From: a virus
Reading direction: 5' to 3' (one strand)
Length of the DNA: 41,434 nucleotides
Virus record (IMG/VR): IMGVR_UViG_3300017991_000193
Span: 1 to 41,434 of that record
Shown here: piece by piece, positions 24,044-38,982 of the stretch
Position numbering within the stretch: position 1 is the stretch's first letter
How the letters are laid out: every line of letters starts with the position of its first letter
Notes under the pieces: model-generated
Databases searched by the model: none
What the model was told of the DNA's origin: nothing
Seen by the model: the letters and a program-made list of their open reading frames with translations, nothing else
Position numbers and translations under genes: made by a program

Positions 24044-24399
24044 TATATTTTCATTTTCTCAGCTAATTTTTCAAAAGTTTTTGCTGCTATTAGCTGGTCC
24101 CATGCCTTAGACATCCAACCAGCAGATTTTCCTCTTTTTTCAACTGATGCAGCATAAATTATATTGCTGCCAGCCCGCACTGTATTTTTTTTTGTTGGCT
24201 TTGTGACTTTAGGTTTGCCTCCTCCGCCCTGACCGTTATAAATTTGATAACTTAAAGAATTTCTCAACAACCCGGTTACAACAGGGGAAGATGTGGAAAA
24301 TTGGTTAACAACAATATTACCAGCAGCGTGAAGAAATGTATTAACATTATTCTTCATTTTCGCATCAAGCTCTTTTTGATTCCATTTAGCTATCGCCAA
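24043..24399 (-). CDS. HK97 gp10-like head-tail joining protein
   Basis: A 118-residue protein with the segments VNQFSTSSPVVTGLLRNSLSY and YAASVEKRGKSAGWMSKAW, the recognised pattern of the HK97 gp10 family. It acts at the neck between head completion and tail terminator. It overlaps the head closure gene by 14 bases. Confidence 0.85.
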   Translation of the reverse strand: MAIAKWNQKELDAKMKNNVNTFLHAAGNIVVNQFSTSSPVVTGLLRNSLSYQIYNGQGGGGKPKVTKPTKKNTVRAGSNIIYAASVEKRGKSAGWMSKAWDQLIAAKTFEKLAEKMKI

Positions 24400-24724
24400 T
24401 CTCTATACCCCTTTCGTTCAGTTTGCAATATATTTCAAGATGGTGGTCCATTTCATTTGGATTGTGTATTCTATAGATTGTGAATTCATCATCATTAACC
24501 CTAAGAACATCACGCATTTTTAGATCTGAAATGTAATCCATATAAACAACATGATCTGCTAAAATTTTATCGCCATCTCTCCTTATAACTCTATTTGAAT
24601 TCAATTGATCAATAGTACAATCGACACTGTTTTGCAAAACATATATATAGTTTGGCGACACATTGTCTCCGGTGTTTGTTTTACGGTATATTTCGACTGT
24701 ATTATTGTGATTAGTAAAGCTCAT
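24386..24724 (-). CDS. Head closure protein (SPP1 gp16-like)
   Basis: A 112-residue protein of the head-tail adaptor type. The beta-rich body includes NNTVEIYRKTN, DGDKILADHVVYMDY and the segment DLKMRDVLRVNDDEFTIYRI, which is typical. It directly follows the sugar cassette: it overlaps the HAD gene by 4 bases. In most phages this gene comes right after the connector gene, which here lies more than 6 kb upstream. Confidence 0.8.
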   Translation of the reverse strand: MSFTNHNNTVEIYRKTNTGDNVSPNYIYVLQNSVDCTIDQLNSNRVIRRDGDKILADHVVYMDYISDLKMRDVLRVNDDEFTIYRIHNPNEMDHHLEIYCKLNERGIEIGDS

Positions 24725-25008
24725 ATAAACTCTTCTGGTCTCATCGCCTTGTCGTCGATGTATATATCCGCAGTTGGCTTCGCCATCACAAGGGTGTGAT
24801 ACCTGACTCCTATTTTAAGCAATTGTTTTTTTGTCAACATTAGTTTGTCCCAATGTCTACCAGTCCATAATACAACTGTATGCCCACAATAATATAATTT
24901 ATTTATTTTATCAACCATTTTTTTGTTCCACGATAATAGATCGTATTTTCCATTTTCTTTTATTGTCGTGAATAATATTGTATCGTCAATATCAATTACA
25001 TATTTCAT
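24721..25008 (-). CDS. Minimal HAD-type phosphatase
   Basis: A 95-residue protein with all four HAD motifs: DIDDT (Asp6, Asp8), WTGR (Thr49), a Lys in AKP (Lys77) and DIYIDD (Asp81, Asp85, Asp86). It has no cap domain. In nonulosonate pathways a HAD enzyme removes the 9-phosphate from the sugar made by a phosphate-using synthase, and this gene directly follows the neuB-like gene with a 4-base overlap. That role is an inference. It would act in the host cytoplasm. Confidence 0.75.
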   Translation of the reverse strand: MKYVIDIDDTILFTTIKENGKYDLLSWNKKMVDKINKLYYCGHTVVLWTGRHWDKLMLTKKQLLKIGVRYHTLVMAKPTADIYIDDKAMRPEEFI

Positions 25009-25817
25009 TTTTTTAAATCCTTCCTTTTCTTTTTTTCGCTCTCTAAAATTTCACGTGGCCCATATCCTTTTAATGTTTTCTCTATAGATCGTATGCCTGC
25101 GATTAGCTTGACGCATCCAATTTTGTCTAAAGAGCTACTCTGGTCAGTTCCCCACATATTCTTATCAAGCGTTATGTGTCTTTCAAGCCATGTTATACCA
25201 GTTGCAGCAACGGCGAATGATGTAGTCAAGCCATATTCATGGCCAGAATAACCGATTTCACAATCATATTTATCCTGAAGCCATTTTATGTAATGAAAAT
25301 TTAAGTCTCCTATTGGTGATGGATACGCACTATTTGTGTGCATAATGACATCTGGATCACATACATATACTGCCTTTTCAATTTCTTTTTCGACACTCAT
25401 GCCAGTGCTCATAATTACTGTTTTGTAATTTTTTCTACAAAATTTTAACATTTCCAAATTCCCAATACATGCTGATGGAATTTTTACTATATTAGAGAAT
25501 TGTGTCATAAACTTAGCACTGTTAATGTCCCATACCGAGGAAAACCACCTGATACCAATATTCTTACAATATTTGTCAATTTCGGCATAATCATCATAAT
25601 CGAACTCAACTCTTTGCTTGTAATCATAATAAGTCATGTCTCCCCATGGGGTGCTTTTTGGTTCATTTTTTTTATGTTCTGGCACTGCAAGATCTATATC
25701 TCTTTTTTGGAATTTAACATAATCAAATCCTGCGACATGCGCAAGATTTATAATTTTTTTAGCTATATCAATATCACCATTATGATTTATTCCTATTTCA
25801 CCAATCGTCTTTATCAT
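25005..25817 (-). CDS. neuB: NeuB-like nonulosonate (sialic-acid-type) synthase
   Basis: A 270-residue TIM barrel that would condense phosphoenolpyruvate with a hexosamine such as ManNAc. Family motifs: GEIGINHNGD (6-15), VKFQKRD (34-40), IGYSGHEYG (188-196) and ERHITLDKNMWGTDQSSSL (212-230). The usual C-terminal SAF (antifreeze-like) domain of about 60-70 residues is missing; typical NeuB is around 340-350 residues. In dimeric NeuB that domain covers the partner active site, so this enzyme may use another lid or have altered substrate choice. It overlaps the HAD gene and the GT29-like gene by 4 bases each. Confidence 0.9.
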   Translation of the reverse strand: MIKTIGEIGINHNGDIDIAKKIINLAHVAGFDYVKFQKRDIDLAVPEHKKNEPKSTPWGDMTYYDYKQRVEFDYDDYAEIDKYCKNIGIRWFSSVWDINSAKFMTQFSNIVKIPSACIGNLEMLKFCRKNYKTVIMSTGMSVEKEIEKAVYVCDPDVIMHTNSAYPSPIGDLNFHYIKWLQDKYDCEIGYSGHEYGLTTSFAVAATGITWLERHITLDKNMWGTDQSSSLDKIGCVKLIAGIRSIEKTLKGYGPREILESEKKKRKDLKK

Positions 25818-26506
25818 TTTTGCTTTACTTCTCCATTCATTATTCCAATTAAAATTTTTTCTACAAAATCAGAAAAAATTAAATTATCATTTTCTTTCCA
25901 TAATTTATAAAAATATTTGGCATTTTCATCGAAATTATGTCCATCCTCTTTTTTGCCTTTGTTGATTTCGTTTCCCTGCTTGCGTATTTTATCAGGAAGA
26001 TACCCGTCGAAATATTCCTGATAATTATCATGCTCGAATACTTTCTTTTTTAAAGAGAAAAAACTTATGCCAGTCACATATAACTCGCATGGATTGTGAT
26101 TTAAAATATCTCTTAAAATATATGATCCCATTGTCGCAGATGGGTTGTATTGATTGACATTTAAAATTGCATTCTTTATTATTTCACATTGTATTTTTTT
26201 CCTAAAATTTTCTAAATCATTTTTTTTACACGTTTTCATTCGTAAATATTTTACGCCTTTAGTTGAAAAAGCATCAATTGGCAACGGCGACATTTCTCTA
26301 TAAAATTGGTTATTTGTATATAAAATATCTATTTTTTTACCATAGTCTTTTTGATATTCATCATTTTCCAGTAAATATATACTTCCATTTGTTCTAGCAA
26401 CAACATCAAATGTATCAATAAATTCACCAAGTCCACGCCCTTTCATGATTGCAGATGGACCAACAAAGCAAACTTTTTTCCCTTTAATATAATCAGTAAA
26501 ATTCAT
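25814..26506 (-). CDS. GT29-like sialyltransferase
   Basis: A 230-residue protein with a sialylmotif-L-like start (VCFVGPSAIMKGRGLGEFID then VVARTNGS, residues 12-42) and a sialylmotif-S-like segment (NPSATMGSYILRDILNHNPC then ELYVTGISFF, 121-150), followed by a conserved His region (EHDNY, His159). GT29 enzymes move sialic acid from CMP-sialic acid to a glycan. This family is best known from animals, but short bacterial and viral members exist. It lies next to the NeuB-like gene, which fits the donor sugar. No membrane anchor is seen, so it would work in the host cytoplasm. Confidence 0.75.
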   Translation of the reverse strand: MNFTDYIKGKKVCFVGPSAIMKGRGLGEFIDTFDVVARTNGSIYLLENDEYQKDYGKKIDILYTNNQFYREMSPLPIDAFSTKGVKYLRMKTCKKNDLENFRKKIQCEIIKNAILNVNQYNPSATMGSYILRDILNHNPCELYVTGISFFSLKKKVFEHDNYQEYFDGYLPDKIRKQGNEINKGKKEDGHNFDENAKYFYKLWKENDNLIFSDFVEKILIGIMNGEVKQK

Positions 26507-27135
26507 TTATTTTCCCCTATTCGTTCGTAACAATGTAGCTGTGGGAATCCATTTAGATATACTTTTTTCTTTAATTTAAACCCACGTTTTTCAATTTCTT
26601 TTTTCCACCATGAAATTGTTTTGATTGTCAAATGTAAATTTGGTATTTTATCAAATATAATTGGATACATTTCTTTGCCTTTTTCTATCCAGCTTCTATT
26701 TCCCTCAATGGCATCATCAAAAATTATAAAAATATATCTTTTTGTAATTCTGTTAATTTCATCAATTGCTTTTTGGACGTCCTCCTCTGTTAAGTGTTCT
26801 AATACATCACATGTGAAGACAGCATCAACGAAATTATCTACAAATGGAATATTTGTTGCTGATGCCTGTATGCAATTCGGGATGTTATATTTTTTTCCTG
26901 TCGCCATCCTGATAGCATTCAGACTTACGTCAATTCCATAAGCCAATTTTCTCCTTTTAAGAAATTTTCCTACGGTAATACCCTGACTACATCCAATATC
27001 AAGAATTGTGTCAAAATCAAACATGCGACATAATTTATCTATATATTTCGCGCCATGATTCTGACCTTTGCCATGATATCCTATTTTGTACAAAAAATCG
27101 TAAATCTTAAAATAATTTATATCTTTTTTATCCAT
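26503..27135 (-). CDS. Class I SAM-dependent methyltransferase (1)
   Basis: A 210-residue Rossmann-fold methyltransferase: motif I ILDIGCSQG (about 44-52), GIDVS (motif II), SATNIPF and the strand-loop DAVFTCDVLEHL (motif IV). This is the methyltransferase-11/25 type common in sugar biosynthesis clusters, acting on small molecules or sugars. It overlaps the gene before and after. The methylated position cannot be predicted. Confidence 0.8.
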   Translation of the reverse strand: MDKKDINYFKIYDFLYKIGYHGKGQNHGAKYIDKLCRMFDFDTILDIGCSQGITVGKFLKRRKLAYGIDVSLNAIRMATGKKYNIPNCIQASATNIPFVDNFVDAVFTCDVLEHLTEEDVQKAIDEINRITKRYIFIIFDDAIEGNRSWIEKGKEMYPIIFDKIPNLHLTIKTISWWKKEIEKRGFKLKKKVYLNGFPQLHCYERIGENK

Positions 27136-27665
27136 GAACTGTCCCTGAAAGTTTTATCTGGAATTGCAAAATTATCAACTGCTGTCTTTACGTCAGGGAA
27201 ATGCTTACTTCCATAATCATGCCCCGAAATATAGCCACCATCTTTTATTTTAGGTAACCATACTCGTATGTCATTATTGACGCCAATATATGTGTGCAAC
27301 CCATCTATATATACAAGATCAATTGATTTATCTAAAATATTTTTACTTGAATTTTCACTTGTATTTTTTATTTTGACGATATTATCATATTTTTCACATA
27401 ATTCATCAAATTGACGCTCTACAATAGACATATCGTGTTGCGAGCTTGCGCCGTCATTTTCATCATATCCGTTTTCCCACGGATCAATACATATAATTTT
27501 CTTTACACGTTTTGCGAAAATTTCTGTAGAATCGCCTACATAACTTCCTATTTCAACCATAGTCATGTTTGACATATCGCCGACATAATCGCATAAATCT
27601 TCTAATCCAATTTTTGCATATTTAGCATTTCTAATTGAAATCTTTTTTGTATCCAAAATATTCAA
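27117..27665 (-). CDS. Class I SAM-dependent methyltransferase (2)
   Basis: A 182-residue protein of the methyltransferase-24 type: MVEIGSYVGDSTEIFA (about 35-50) as the SAM-binding loop, ICIDPWENGY, LVYIDGLHTYIGVNNDI and then DGGYISGHDY. This family includes sugar O-methyltransferases and macrocin-type enzymes. It starts 35 bases within the sulfotransferase gene end. Confidence 0.8.
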   Translation of the reverse strand: MNILDTKKISIRNAKYAKIGLEDLCDYVGDMSNMTMVEIGSYVGDSTEIFAKRVKKIICIDPWENGYDENDGASSQHDMSIVERQFDELCEKYDNIVKIKNTSENSSKNILDKSIDLVYIDGLHTYIGVNNDIRVWLPKIKDGGYISGHDYGSKHFPDVKTAVDNFAIPDKTFRDSSWIKKI

Positions 27666-28230
27666 AGTCTCCTTTTAATTTATTATAAACAATTTCTTGC
27701 AATTCATCTGTATAAAATTTTCTATAATCATTGCCGACACCCCAATTTTTCATATGTGGCAAAGTAAATGTTTTACCAAAAGCTTTTTGCGAAAATAAAT
27801 CAAAATCATTTTGAAAATTTTCAAATCTAATAATATAGTCAATCATTACTTTTTCGCCATACGAAATAAAGTCTTTCTGAAGGCTCCATAGCTTAAATTG
27901 CGTTGTTTCCTTATTACTATATATTCTTGTTTGTTCTTTTATAAATTGTTCAAAAGACTCAGGCTTGATAACGTCACTTGAGCGCTTGCCAATCTCAGAC
28001 TCTCTGAGCAAATGATGATACCACGAAACCATTCTGCTGTATGGATTTCTAATAACAGAAAACTTAATGTATGCATCAAGATTGTAATTTTTACGTAAAG
28101 CATTTCTAACATTTACGTGCACTCCTATTTTGTCGCCATTCAGATCATTTAATAAAATAGTTCTTACGCTAGATCCTCCTGTTTTCGGTATATGAAAAAA
28201 TATAACTCTATAATTCTCGCAAACAACCAT
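27631..28230 (-). CDS. Sulfotransferase
   Basis: A 199-residue protein with the two PAPS-binding sites of carbohydrate sulfotransferases: the 5'-phosphosulfate loop FFHIPKTGGSSVR (11-23, Lys16) and the 3'-phosphate motif FSVIRNPYSRMVSWY (57-71, Arg61, Ser65). DYIIRFENFQNDF later in the chain is also typical. It would transfer sulfate from PAPS to a hydroxyl, most likely on the cassette sugar. PAPS must come from the host. It follows methyltransferase 3 by two bases. Confidence 0.85.
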   Translation of the reverse strand: MVVCENYRVIFFHIPKTGGSSVRTILLNDLNGDKIGVHVNVRNALRKNYNLDAYIKFSVIRNPYSRMVSWYHHLLRESEIGKRSSDVIKPESFEQFIKEQTRIYSNKETTQFKLWSLQKDFISYGEKVMIDYIIRFENFQNDFDLFSQKAFGKTFTLPHMKNWGVGNDYRKFYTDELQEIVYNKLKGDFEYFGYKKDFN

Positions 28231-28232
28231 TT

Positions 28233-28898
28233 TTAAACCTCATAATCTGGAATTCTATCTACGAAATAAAGTCCTAAAAATATATTTGGCGCTTTCGGCT
28301 TCTTAATCGATGGTAATATCTCGGGGATATACGCTACAGAGTGCGATAAATTAAATGGTTCTATTTCTAAGTTTCTACGTATAGCCCATATGCAACTTGT
28401 TTCTTGATTTTCTTCAAGAGTAAAATCTGTAGACGCAAGTAAATATTTACTGCCTGATTTTTTGATATTAGAAAGCATTTTTTTTACACTATCCAGCGAT
28501 GTATGCAAAAATACATTTCTAACAATTACCATATCAGCCCGAGGACATTCATCTTCAATTAGATTGCTATGTTTAAAATTCATATGTGGATATTTGATTT
28601 TGTTGTCTTCAATAATTTCTTTAACTATATCTATTCCAGTATATTTTACTTTATCCCATTGCATTTTTGACTGCCATATACAGTCTGAACAGCCAACATC
28701 AATAACAGATTTTATTTTCAAATCATCAAACAATACATTAAGATGCTTTTCAGTCCAGCTTGAATATTTATTTATATCATCATTTTTTAACCATATCGAT
28801 TTATCGTCTTCGACATTATCTTTTTCTTGCAAATACAGCTCATTCCAGCATTCTTGTTCATTCAAATCTTTAGTTTTTTTATACCATTCTTTATCCAT
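28233..28898 (-). CDS. Class I SAM-dependent methyltransferase (3)
   Basis: A 221-residue protein. VIDVGCSDCIWQSKM gives SAM-binding motif I (about 65-79), followed by YTGIDIV, HSNLIEDECPRADMVIVRNVFLHT (motif IV area) and SGSKYLLASTDF. It resembles small-molecule and sugar methyltransferases in glycan clusters. It overlaps the GT8 gene by 8 bases. Confidence 0.75.
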   Translation of the reverse strand: MDKEWYKKTKDLNEQECWNELYLQEKDNVEDDKSIWLKNDDINKYSSWTEKHLNVLFDDLKIKSVIDVGCSDCIWQSKMQWDKVKYTGIDIVKEIIEDNKIKYPHMNFKHSNLIEDECPRADMVIVRNVFLHTSLDSVKKMLSNIKKSGSKYLLASTDFTLEENQETSCIWAIRRNLEIEPFNLSHSVAYIPEILPSIKKPKAPNIFLGLYFVDRIPDYEV

Positions 28899-29661
28899 TT
28901 ATTATGTCCTCGTAATTCATGTTATAATATTCCCACCATATCGGATATATTTCAAAAAATTCCTTTTCTATGTCGTTCTGGTGATCATCGTATTCCATCC
29001 ACGGTTTGTCGGCAACCCAATGGAGTATTTTTTTACCATTCCATACATCCTTGTATTTTTCAGTTTTCCACATGCGTTTTTCAACGTTGTAACCCTTTGA
29101 TAGATACTGCATAACATTACCAAAAAAGATATTTATTGTCTTCTGATCTGGCATGTTATGCCCACGTGTTGCAATTTTGATCAAATTATGATATATATGC
29201 TTTTGTATATATTTTTTATTAACAACAAAAACTCCTGAATTTATAGAATTATTAAGCCTATCCAATCGTGCATTATATGATTTGCACGCAGCAAAATCTT
29301 TTGAGCATTCGAGTATTTCTCGAATACTGCCCAAAACTGTTACATCGCTATCGATAAATATAAGTCTATCATATTCAAGTATACCAAAAATATCAAGCTT
29401 ATAGTATGTAGCTTTCAGCTTGTCATGTGTGCGCTTCATATTTACTTTGTGATATCGTTCATATTTAATTTTTCTAAATATTGCTTTGCTGTTGTATTTT
29501 TTTACAATATTTTTTGATTGCTCTGACAGGCCGTTATCCAATATGATTAAATCGATATCAGATTTTAAAAACCATTTATTATGATATATAAATGATTTCC
29601 AGAATCCTTCAAATCCAACAATAAAATTATCGTCCAATAGTGTTACAATGGCTTTTTTCAT
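28891..29661 (-). CDS. GT8-family glycosyltransferase
   Basis: A 256-residue GT-A fold enzyme of the glycogenin/LgtC type: DSD metal-binding motif in LIFIDSDVTVL (100-110), NSGVFVVNK (141-149), the DQKTIN segment and HWVADKPW near the C-terminus, which matches the conserved HxxG/KPW end. It would transfer glucose, galactose or a relative from a UDP-sugar with retention. It might build the sugar to which the nonulosonate is joined. It overlaps the gene before and after by a few bases. Confidence 0.85.
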   Translation of the reverse strand: MKKAIVTLLDDNFIVGFEGFWKSFIYHNKWFLKSDIDLIILDNGLSEQSKNIVKKYNSKAIFRKIKYERYHKVNMKRTHDKLKATYYKLDIFGILEYDRLIFIDSDVTVLGSIREILECSKDFAACKSYNARLDRLNNSINSGVFVVNKKYIQKHIYHNLIKIATRGHNMPDQKTINIFFGNVMQYLSKGYNVEKRMWKTEKYKDVWNGKKILHWVADKPWMEYDDHQNDIEKEFFEIYPIWWEYYNMNYEDIING

Positions 29662-30287
29662 TTTAATTCCCTTAAATCTTTTTCATAATCAACATCAATT
29701 TTGTCTTCTATTGTCATATAAACAGTATAATCATTATATAGATTTTTATTCAATCTGTATAATTCAAAAACATATGCGATTTGGATAAAATGGGATATTT
29801 CCCATACTTCAGGATAATCCTGTCTTCTATACTCATTATGCTTTATGATCTGCTTGCCATCATTGTAAATACATAAATATGGATGCGTTTTAGGTTTTTT
29901 CCTACATAGCAAGCTAGTTGCATTAGCAATATTGAAATAATCTATTGCTTTTTGAATATCTTCCCATGTGCGTTGTGGGTAAGTTAAATATAGCATAACA
30001 ATTATATCGTTATCATTTAAATCGCAAAAATGAACTACATCGGTTAAAACATCTTTCATGCTTGATGTATGCGTATGTATATTTAGTCCGCTATTTTCGT
30101 TATTTCTATAAATAGCTTTGACACCATGATATGCTGAATGGTCAAGTATAACTTGATCATTTGTAGTAACGATTACATTTTTTTTATATTTATCAGGTAT
30201 AGTTTTAATTGTATTTTCAAAAAGTTTTCTATTTTTAAACGGAAATCCTTCAGAATCTCTTTTGGCCGGAATAACATAATAAATCAT
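29658..30287 (-). CDS. neuA: NeuA-like nonulosonate cytidylyltransferase
   Basis: A 209-residue enzyme expected to activate the NeuB product with CTP as a CMP-sugar. The P-loop-like start IPAKRDSEGFPFKNRKLF (6-23) matches the IPARGGSKGIPxKN signature with Lys18 and Asn19 kept. MLYLTYPQRTWEDIQKAI fits the LQPTSPLR region, and IDVDYEKDL near the end fits the metal-binding IDxxxD segment. The second Gly of the signature loop is replaced (KRDSEG), so substrate range may differ. It overlaps the genes on both sides by 4 bases. Confidence 0.82.
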   Translation of the reverse strand: MIYYVIPAKRDSEGFPFKNRKLFENTIKTIPDKYKKNVIVTTNDQVILDHSAYHGVKAIYRNNENSGLNIHTHTSSMKDVLTDVVHFCDLNDNDIIVMLYLTYPQRTWEDIQKAIDYFNIANATSLLCRKKPKTHPYLCIYNDGKQIIKHNEYRRQDYPEVWEISHFIQIAYVFELYRLNKNLYNDYTVYMTIEDKIDVDYEKDLRELK

Positions 30288-30880
30288 AGCACTGTACTCC
30301 TATTTTGTTTTTTAAATAAATTCAAACCACTTTCTGGATTCAAGTTAATAAATCTATCTCTATGCGGAACAAATGCAAGCATCTTATCAAGTTTTTTTAA
30401 AAATTTGATCATTGGATACCGCTTATGATGTTCATAATCTGGATAAAAGTGCCTGTTCCCCTTTTTGTCAACATAATCAAACCCGAGAAGATATATTTTT
30501 TTTGCATTCATTATTAAAGCCAAATTCATTGCCATTATAGCAGAATTTGTCGGATGATAAAGCCCATCTTTTTCTATATCTGTAGACAGATGACCACGAT
30601 TATCTTGAAAAATATAGAAATTGTCATTATTTTTAATTGTTTCTATTTCTGGCTGGTATGTTGCTTTCTCAGATGCAAAAATCATCCCTTGAAATTTTGA
30701 TAAATCGTATGGCGTTGTCTTCACAAAAATTCTATCAGCAAATAACAAACAATTCAATTTGTCGTAATGTTCAACAATGTGATTCATCCCTATCGTGAAA
30801 TGTTTGTCCAATTTATTGAAATCAAATCCGCATAATGAAGATCCGGATCCAACTATAAAACAATCACGACCACTCAACAT
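30284..30880 (-). CDS. GT42/DUF115-like putative sialyltransferase
   Basis: A 198-residue protein. CFIVGSGSSLCGFDFNKL (7-24) and FTIGMNHIVEHY recall the Campylobacter Cst-type GT42 start (AGNGPSLKEIDY...FRCNQF), and TNSAIMAMNLALIMNAKKIY then LLGFDYV (111-137) recalls the central GT42 and DUF115 segment. The family also includes Maf-type motility-associated proteins that handle nonulosonates. It is the first gene of the cassette, 19 bases after the connector gene stop. Activity as a sialyltransferase is inferred; the DUF115-type alternative remains open. Confidence 0.65.
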   Translation of the reverse strand: MLSGRDCFIVGSGSSLCGFDFNKLDKHFTIGMNHIVEHYDKLNCLLFADRIFVKTTPYDLSKFQGMIFASEKATYQPEIETIKNNDNFYIFQDNRGHLSTDIEKDGLYHPTNSAIMAMNLALIMNAKKIYLLGFDYVDKKGNRHFYPDYEHHKRYPMIKFLKKLDKMLAFVPHRDRFINLNPESGLNLFKKQNRSTVL

Positions 30881-30899: not shown

Positions 30900-31262
30900 T
30901 TAGTTCGCTCTTTGATATCTGTCTATCCTTTTAACTATTGCCTCCGGATACCCATGTATCATTTTTTCTTTGTTTGCGCCTTTTGTATATGAATAACTGC
31001 CTATCGATTCACTCATTTTATTACCGTAATTTACATCACTAAAAGTCATAGATGACAACATATGACCTATCATCATAGATGCAACTGAATCCGCATTGTC
31101 TGGATACTCAATATTATCATTCGAATCCTCATCCCATGCTACACCTCTAATTCTCAAATAGTCATCTTCCACTTGAGAAATAAGAGCCTCTATCCTTTCA
31201 TCATACGTAGTACTTGTGATTCCAAGAAACATCTTTACCGTTTCCTTGTCTGTTATAGCCAT
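30900..31262 (-). CDS. Head-tail connector (HK97 gp6 / SPP1 gp15-like)
   Basis: A 120-residue helical protein with the connector pattern: MAITDKETVKMFLGI, DERIEALISQVEDDYLRIRG and later VASMMIGHMLSS and GSYSYTKG. It binds the portal ring and extends the head exit. It is separated from its usual neighbour, the head closure gene, by the whole sugar cassette. Confidence 0.85.
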   Translation of the reverse strand: MAITDKETVKMFLGITSTTYDERIEALISQVEDDYLRIRGVAWDEDSNDNIEYPDNADSVASMMIGHMLSSMTFSDVNYGNKMSESIGSYSYTKGANKEKMIHGYPEAIVKRIDRYQRAN

Positions 31263-37743: not shown

Positions 37744-38982
37744 TTAAAATTTTAATCGCTTATTTTTGCTAAATAGGTCTTGCATTTTGACACCAGTAGG
37801 TTCATATCTCTGCGAGTACCCCCTCCTTAAGCCTTCTAAGCTATACCGGATAGCATCTATGCAATGATTATATTTGTCAACTATAATTGGCAAAATTTCT
37901 TCTGTTAGTTTATCAATTTTGTAACTATACGACATAAACTCATATGCAGTATTCTTGCACCGCTCGTGTATATATATTTTCTTAAATTTCTTTATAAATT
38001 CTATTCCGTCTTTTATACTATTTTTGCCCTTCCTAGATGGCTTAATAATAAATCCTTTTCGATTTAAATAGCTAATTGTATCTGACCTCTGATTGTCTGC
38101 AACAATCTTATTTCGCCTTGCCTGTGGAATTGAATCAAATAATTGTGGTATCTCGTCAATTTCGACACCTACACCATATGCTTCGTAATCTATATATAAA
38201 CAATTATCATAAACATAACATCTTATCAAGCAAGTTGGATCATTTGCAAATCCCCAATCGGCGCCATAATAAAAATCGACACCTTCATGCGTATTGAACA
38301 TATCTACAACAAATTTGCCCTTAAACACGCATGCATCCGTAATAGTCTTAGGATTCCCTTCCCATACGTGCAAATACTTATCATAATCGTATTGCTTGTC
38401 CCATTCCATTTCCTTCCTGAGTACATCTGGAAAATATGGGTTGTCTAGATAATTCACCTTGATCAGTAAAGTGTCTTCCCTATTGCCTGTTACGAATCGT
38501 CTATAAATAGGATCGTCCTCAGTTTCCGGGTTAAATGTCACAAAAAATTGACTATTATTATTCCTGACGGTAGGCCATAATATATCAATTGATTTCTGGC
38601 TAACACTTTGCGCCTCCTCAATCCAACAATAATTAACACCCTCTGTGGATTTGACTCCTGTAATCTTATGGCTAAGCCCCTTAAATATAAATCTAGATCC
38701 ATTTTTACAGTATATTCTGTTCTTCTGTATGTCGAATATGTGATTGAGATTTAAATTTTGTATGATTTTCGCGAGTAGACTTAAAACGGAATCCTCTATT
38801 GTGTTCTGGACTTCCCTTGTGCACAGGATAATCTGATTTCTTTTCGTCATGGCCTTGACTATTAAGGCAATAGCGACGGCCCATGACTTAGAACCACCTC
38901 TGCCGCCATACATTACTATGTTTCTTTTCTTTGACTTGAATATTGGAAGTACTTTAGGTGGAACTTCTACATCTTTATTCAT
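37744..38982 (-). CDS. terL: Terminase large subunit (PBSX/SPP1 type)
   Basis: A 412-residue packaging motor. ATPase: Walker A GGRGGSKS (26-33), Walker B NYCWIEEA (117-124), coupling motif FVTFNP (147-152). Nuclease: YYGADWGFANDP (238-249, Asp242) and the late acidic segment YNHCIDAIRYSLEG. It pumps DNA into the prohead and cuts the concatemer. The type suggests headful (pac) packaging, consistent with a circularly permuted map (inference). It overlaps the small membrane gene upstream through ATGA. Confidence 0.94.
   Translation of the reverse strand: MNKDVEVPPKVLPIFKSKKRNIVMYGGRGGSKSWAVAIALIVKAMTKRNQIILCTREVQNTIEDSVLSLLAKIIQNLNLNHIFDIQKNRIYCKNGSRFIFKGLSHKITGVKSTEGVNYCWIEEAQSVSQKSIDILWPTVRNNNSQFFVTFNPETEDDPIYRRFVTGNREDTLLIKVNYLDNPYFPDVLRKEMEWDKQYDYDKYLHVWEGNPKTITDACVFKGKFVVDMFNTHEGVDFYYGADWGFANDPTCLIRCYVYDNCLYIDYEAYGVGVEIDEIPQLFDSIPQARRNKIVADNQRSDTISYLNRKGFIIKPSRKGKNSIKDGIEFIKKFKKIYIHERCKNTAYEFMSYSYKIDKLTEEILPIIVDKYNHCIDAIRYSLEGLRRGYSQRYEPTGVKMQDLFSKNKRLKF

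Follow-up and report, generated by a model that had tools for sequence, protein, structure and literature searches.

A SAF-less NeuB-type synthase and a capless HAD in a virus genome record: a proposed phage pathway for making and activating a nine-carbon acid sugar

The IMG/VR virus record IMGVR_UViG_3300017991_000193 (positions 1 to 41,434, the whole stretch of 41,434 bases analysed here and referred to as the window) was found to carry terminase, portal, capsid and tape-measure genes together with a gene for a NeuB-type synthase which lacks the C-terminal SAF (antifreeze-like) domain, followed by a gene for a very small HAD protein. The question raised by this locus is whether the two proteins act one after the other on a sugar phosphate and, if so, on which one. 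The reading favoured here, to which we give a probability of roughly 0.55, is that the phage encodes a pathway leading to an activated nine-carbon acid sugar, of which the pair would catalyse steps one and two.

Both genes belong to a cassette of ten close-packed genes on the minus strand (24721–30880) located between two head-tail adaptor-type genes (Table 1). Eight of the nine junctions within the cassette are overlaps of 4–35 nt, with overlaps of 4 nt joining the GT29-like gene to the synthase gene and the synthase gene to the HAD gene, and the junction into the downstream border gene also overlaps. The G+C content of the cassette is 0.306, compared with 0.357 and 0.366 for the flanking regions. 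The GT29-like match passes the family cut-off, covering only positions 59–152 of the 272 in the PF00777 profile. The CMP-transferase assignment of 29658–30287 is proposed on the basis of an iterated profile started from the CMP-transferase portion of a fusion protein described below (L152); the match of this protein to PF02348 (E 0.013, 15.8 bits) is under the cut-off of 22.6, and no match to it was found in the PDB. A scan for related phages with the major capsid protein identified three relatives only, at 28%. The terminase large subunit (37744–38982) is nearest to those of the Nitratiruptor phages NrS-1 to NrS-3 (49–50% identity), a likeness which gives a weak hint of a Campylobacterota host.

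Table 1. Genes of the cassette and its two borders, listed in the order of transcription.
Feature	Coordinates	Strand	Evidence
Head-tail adaptor, upstream cassette border	30900..31262	-	phrog_1161 4.1e-4
Second sialyltransferase-like / MptE-like candidate, 198 aa	30284..30880	-	phrog_4603 'alpha-2;3-sialyltransferase' 3.4e-14
Cytidylyltransferase-like, 209 aa; proposed CMP-nonulosonate synthetase	29658..30287	-	iterated profile
GT8-type glycosyltransferase, 256 aa	28891..29661	-	PF01501 1.3e-14
Methyltransferase, 221 aa	28233..28898	-	phrog_3382 3.2e-30
Sulfotransferase, 199 aa	27631..28230	-	PF03567 1.9e-14; phrog_3347 3.2e-15
Methyltransferase, 182 aa	27117..27665	-	PF13578 9.4e-19
Methyltransferase, 210 aa	26503..27135	-	PF08241 9.3e-17
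GT29 (sialyltransferase)-like glycosyltransferase, 230 aa	25814..26506	-	PF00777 5.9e-6, 26.3 bits, cut-off 23
PEP-dependent nonulosonate synthase of NeuB type, lacking SAF, 270 aa; proposed Kdn-9-P synthase	25005..25817	-	PF03102 3.9e-61
Capless HAD, 95 aa; proposed nonulosonate-9-phosphate phosphatase	24721..25008	-	four HAD motifs
Head-tail adaptor / head closure, downstream cassette border	24386..24724	-	phrog_1059 2.2e-6, phrog_25 3.4e-4

The synthase was matched by PF03102 over profile positions 1–237 of 241, and a Pfam search with E-values up to 0.1 identified no other family in it. Its AlphaFold2 model is a full barrel (mean pLDDT 95.5) with a final helix at residues 259–268. The best solved fold match is 6ncs, the sialic acid synthetase of Leptospira borgpetersenii (Z 33.9, rmsd 2.3, 257 aligned residues), of which the deposited 290-aa chain, maybe not full-length, also ends after the barrel. 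However, the two share 28% identity, and 6ncs has A-Y at the site of the Lys-Arg pair described below. The NeuB/NnaB of Neisseria meningitidis (NmeNeuB, 1xuu) was matched with Z 33.0 (rmsd 2.4, 265 aligned). A SAF profile built from 37 C-terminal tails detected no SAF in the window in any of the six reading frames. A first scan yielded 12 viral relatives (10 distinct synthases), each of which ends within five residues of the endpoint of the window synthase. The description given in an earlier note on this DNA, of a NeuB-like synthase of about 270 residues that stops after the barrel, therefore holds. A sequencing error hiding a SAF domain, which the note had named as grounds for refutation, was rejected as unlikely, because the viral relatives share the same endpoint and SAF-less sequences occur in many cellular phyla. 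The idea of a separate SAF protein acting in trans was also rejected, since no stand-alone SAF (segment <150 aa, E<1e-5) was found in the loci searched with the SAF profile.

In profile scans, 450 matched viral stretches yielded 387 relatives and at least 591 matched stretches of genomes at least 587, and the best 80 of each were examined. A SAF-less, HAD-linked class of NeuB was defined here by the absence of SAF, the presence of a Lys-Arg pair and a family profile score >300; the window synthase has no SAF, carries K38-R39 and scores 428. A total of 186 rows score >300, with tails of −1 to 26 residues beyond the barrel (−1 to 5 in all 91 viral class rows, window included), and a copy of the window (L013) was left out of all counts. 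Among the lower-scoring rows, 44 have at least 50 residues after the barrel and nine have fewer than 10, the latter being a second SAF-less branch, short viral paralogues and fragments. Pfam found SAF in L174 and L226, and none when sought in L099, L116, L119, L137, L152, L230 and L241. The SAF-less cellular rows bear the names of ten phyla, several of them from MAGs. On these matches the SAF-less synthase is a widespread cellular class which is also common in bacteria. SAF loss as a phage trait was rejected as the same class occurs in cells, and for this reason the "streamlined form" in which the earlier note had read the pathway is unsupported for the synthase, which is no phage reduction.

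A quick tree of 113 rows places the window within an all-viral SAF-less set of 37 rows (support 99). Another set of 37 rows (also 99) holds the long-tailed sequences, both SAF-containing and NeuB-cupin, along with the second SAF-less branch. As the tree is unrooted and many of its inner forks are weak, loss of SAF and late gain of SAF are indistinguishable in it.

With NmeNeuB as reference, the equivalents of eleven active-site residues (E25, K53, Q55, K129, S154, Y186, S213, H215, E234, H236, and D247, Nme numbering) are kept in all 186 class rows, which represent 163 distinct sequences, and that of S132 in 184. Seven of the eleven residues are among the 13 ligand contacts of NmeNeuB listed in PMC6795526. 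Of the other contacts, T110 is replaced by Ser, F112 by Trp (184 rows) and N184 by Ser (185 rows), N74 has no alignable position, and R314 lies in the absent SAF. The class also deviates from canonical NeuB in having Lys-Arg in place of Thr56-His57 (186/186) and in the loss of the acid at Glu134 in common variants, the window being one of those with no acid there. The window synthase scores 199 bits against the NeuB_NnaB equivalog TIGR03569 (cut-off 399.65) and 141.8 against PseI TIGR03586 (cut-off 340.25).

The gene neighborhood of the class was compared with that of SAF-containing synthases in a NeuB-driven sample of 41 rows (loci L174–L215, two phyla, best-scoring matches only). A same-strand HAD gene lies no more than 150 nt away in 11 of 11 SAF-less and 0 of 30 SAF-containing rows, although Fisher values on these counts and on those for Lys-Arg overstate their strength, and the linkage counts are not independent because most of the class falls in a single part of the tree. 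The SAF profile matches all 30 SAF-containing rows, most of which are its own seeds. Outside the 41 rows are L216–L223, where the synthase profile did not reach E 1e-20, and L215, which has a cut 3′ end. At 81 cellular SAF-less places, from the best 80 of at least 587 relatives, the HAD is adjacent in 53 or fused in 11 (64/81), further off in 5 and not found in 12. Of the 91 viral SAF-less rows (window included), 45 have a small HAD directly beside the synthase and on its strand, 33 have one elsewhere in the locus and in 13 none was found there, with L032 counted as "other" for HAD placement. The synthase of this viral contig occupies two abutting ORFs (L032:3103–3924), due to a frameshift or an assembly error. 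After identical synthases were collapsed, 60 of 72 viral loci were found to have a small HAD and 61 a CMP-transferase-like gene. By these counts the pairing of the synthase with a small HAD exceeds chance.

Gene fusions were found as well. A CMP-transferase, a HAD and a SAF-less NeuB share one frame in 11 loci by profile (among the best 80 of at least 587), three of which (L152, L116, and L119) were checked with Pfam. These triple fusions (L152:6759–8816 and ten similar loci) are 678–873 aa in length and are presumably all from Streptosporangiaceae. A HAD-NeuB fusion of 475 aa is encoded by L241:547–1974, from the same phylum as G001. The Streptomyces and Streptosporangiaceae loci L137 and L152 have the same synthase class and the same three functions as the window, but with the CMP-transferase and HAD (in L152 also the synthase) in one chain and with a HAD of KdsC type.

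The Lys-Arg pair follows the active-site Gln in every class row. Outside the class, 10 rows also carry it, all of them having a HAD no further than 600 nt away: the second SAF-less branch (L230, L232, L233, and L235), the SAF-containing L224–L227, and two more rows (L196 and L229). At this site the viral NeuB-cupin proteins carry Tyr-Arg instead. In the NeuB-driven sample, a HAD is present within 1 kb in 12 of 12 rows with Lys-Arg vs. 0 of 29 without it (L228, with a gap at the site, is excluded), the signature having been noticed on the same data that count it. Lys-Arg was also present in 12 of 12 rows of a HAD-driven set, which is only partly independent as some of its genes are also in other sets. 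It is suggested that K38-R39 probably helps to hold the phosphate. The phosphate route of the earlier note, in which a 9-phosphate is made and then dephosphorylated, is thus supported by gene context, HAD-synthase fusions and the Lys-Arg signature, and is considered quite likely.

A comparable arrangement exists in the Kdn-9-P synthase/phosphatase type of Bacteroides thetaiotaomicron (BT1714, as named in PMC6200933; phosphatase 3e81), to which L224–L227 are probably orthologous. These four rows have a KLTKR sequence, and their HADs are 59–64% identical to 3e81, the PDB title of which is Kdn-9-P phosphatase. Similar to the window, synthases of this type adjoin a capless HAD (≤500 nt), have the Lys-Arg pair and share a G-x(1-2)-T-Y-x-E/D-H/Y-R/K motif, read by eye. 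However, they keep SAF (PF08666 in L226), their HAD is a KdsC-type protein of 164 aa, and L224 and L226 are placed on the other branch of the tree (the 37-row set with support 99 that excludes the window). The idea that an enzyme must lose SAF in order to use phosphates was rejected on account of these HAD-linked rows; being probable Kdn-9-P synthases with SAF, they indicate that neither phosphate use nor Kdn needs SAF loss.

The HAD protein has motif residues D6, D8, and T10 (I), T49 (II), K77 (III), and D86 (IV), none of which varies among 48 aligned sequences (that of the window being one of them), and its model (pLDDT 94) has only a short hairpin at the cap position. It is accordingly a capless (C0) HAD, in agreement with the earlier description of a 95-residue protein with four motifs and no cap. 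The nearest solved structure is 9iqw (Z 10.8), the D-arabinose 1,5-diphosphate phosphatase AfhF of phage HY126, which is likewise a small phage HAD (34–40% identity); its substrate by PDB title is, however, a pentose diphosphate, unlike that proposed here. A phmmer search of solved structures with E-values up to 1 identified 9iqw, 1xpj, and 1xhl only, and hence no Kdn-9-P phosphatase or KdsC family member, while the fold match to 3e81 is weak (E 2.8e-3). The phage HAD is thus, by sequence, of another HAD family than the KdsC-type partner in cells. The small family matches 357 phage records, and in 80 viral loci fetched by HAD alone NeuB was in view in 22 and not in 58, some of the latter being short contigs. 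The five viral HADs nearest to that of the window (47–53% identical) are all within 200 nt of a SAF-less NeuB, three of these loci being contigs already found through NeuB. As it is common in phages with mixed linkage to NeuB, the small HAD has the appearance of a general phosphatase that phages use on sugar phosphates, taking the place of the KdsC-type partner of cells. The label "phosphoheptose isomerase" of phrog_1238 for this HAD was rejected as a mislabel, since the matched protein has HAD motifs and fold; it has propagated into phage records.

The genes, their intact motifs, the synthase class and its linkage to a HAD are observed, whereas each reaction, the substrate, the role of K38-R39 and the glycan target are inferred. 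In the proposed route, the SAF-less barrel would condense PEP with a hexose-6-phosphate, most likely Man-6-P of the host, to give Kdn-9-phosphate, from which the 95-aa HAD would remove the phosphate. Kdn would then be converted to CMP-Kdn by the cytidylyltransferase-like protein (29658–30287) and be transferred to a glycan by the GT29-like or the second sialyltransferase-like protein. This glycan may be assembled by the GT8 protein, with decoration by the methyl- and sulfotransferases.

The identity of the sugar is the less certain part, with about an even chance of Kdn specifically. The same phosphate route could start from ManNAc-6-phosphate, giving Neu5Ac-9-P and then Neu5Ac as in animals. 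This is considered unlikely, even though it fits the same HAD-synthase gene context, 6ncs, the solved structure nearest to the synthase, comes from Leptospira and bears the label sialic acid synthetase, and an animal-like 9-phosphate route has been proposed for Leptospira in PMC3438082. A NeuC/WecB-like epimerase is the usual source of ManNAc. None was detected in 79 unique cellular SAF-less loci (among the best 80 of at least 587), where some could be missed because 24 of these 80 loci span less than 16.7 kb, and Pfam found none among the ten cassette proteins. An epimerase was present in 8 short loci of the SAF-containing sample, besides the seed locus L016, and an epimerase-like gene in 10 of 72 unique viral loci. 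In NmeNeuB, positioning of the N-acetyl group is attributed to the SAF residue Arg314 (PMC6795526), and the absence of this residue hints at Kdn since Man-6-P has no such group to be placed; the hint is weak as SAF is retained in L224–L227, which are probable Kdn-9-P synthases. According to PMC11481543, Kdn teichulosonic acid occurs in Streptomyces walls, and in nine of 11 Streptomyces genomes (L165 left out) the SAF-less gene is the sole NeuB-family match, with one further marginal match in the other two. An algal Kdn-9-P synthase accepted only Man-6-P of seven sugars tried, as stated in PMC6200933. The first-choice substrate is therefore probably Man-6-P and not ManNAc or ManNAc-6-P.

It is doubtful, and somewhat more so than a start from ManNAc-6-P, that the two enzymes are not consecutive, with the HAD acting on another cassette sugar phosphate (e.g., a pentose phosphate, as for AfhF) and the synthase using a free sugar. 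AfhF as nearest solved HAD and the 58 of 80 HAD-driven viral loci without NeuB in view, in a family spread over 357 phage records, speak for this, but the five nearest viral HADs all lie close to a SAF-less NeuB, a different HAD family adjoins the same synthase in cells, and a natural HAD-NeuB fusion exists. The resemblance of the HAD to an arabinose-phosphate phosphatase could also point to an eight-carbon or other keto acid, such as Kdo-8-P made from arabinose-5-phosphate. This is very improbable given that KDO8P synthases are only ~9–14% identical in fold alignments, that the class clusters with NeuB and that some of its cellular members are fused to cytidylyltransferase and HAD. The view of the SAF-less protein as a remnant, inactive or degenerate, is slightly less probable again: replacement of the SAF arginine by Ala abolishes NmeNeuB activity (PMC6795526), but the eleven active-site residues are invariant, the class is conserved across many phyla and viruses, and the related KDO8P synthases, which match in fold, are reported in the same source to lack SAF too.

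The favoured reading of two consecutive steps toward an activated nine-carbon acid sugar may be extended, tentatively and with somewhat less than even confidence, to the class as a whole: SAF-less Lys-Arg synthases would be a separate, widespread class acting on hexose-6-phosphates and chiefly making Kdn, SAF would mostly mark the free-sugar class, and phages would have acquired this class and swapped the cellular phosphatase for a minimal phage HAD. If this is true, phages could decorate their own glycans or those of the host with Kdn derived from two common host metabolites, and many uncultured viruses would need no more than PEP and Man-6-P to produce a sialic-acid-type sugar, which could serve as a disguise or a receptor change. 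In the titles and abstract openings among the literature matches listed, mostly from outside subscription journals, no phage-borne nonulosonate synthesis and no SAF-less NeuB were found.

Additional NeuB-like genes were observed in several loci. A second NeuB-like protein of ~486–492 aa is encoded near the SAF-less synthase in L004:4581–6059, L039:5236–6699, and L059/L060:4654–6114, with further examples at L257:3842, L260:3709, and L320:2154; a C-terminal cupin (PF07883) was confirmed on those of L004 and L039. In a large phage genome (L014:7253–12074), several proteins which by eye look like GT29 type surround the SAF-less NeuB. Short divergent NeuB paralogues (244–253 aa) are present in the same viral loci as the synthase at L019:10403–11137, L075:9445–10197, L079/L080:6565–7311, L055:4209, and L056:4183, and those of L019 and L075 were confirmed as members of the NeuB family.
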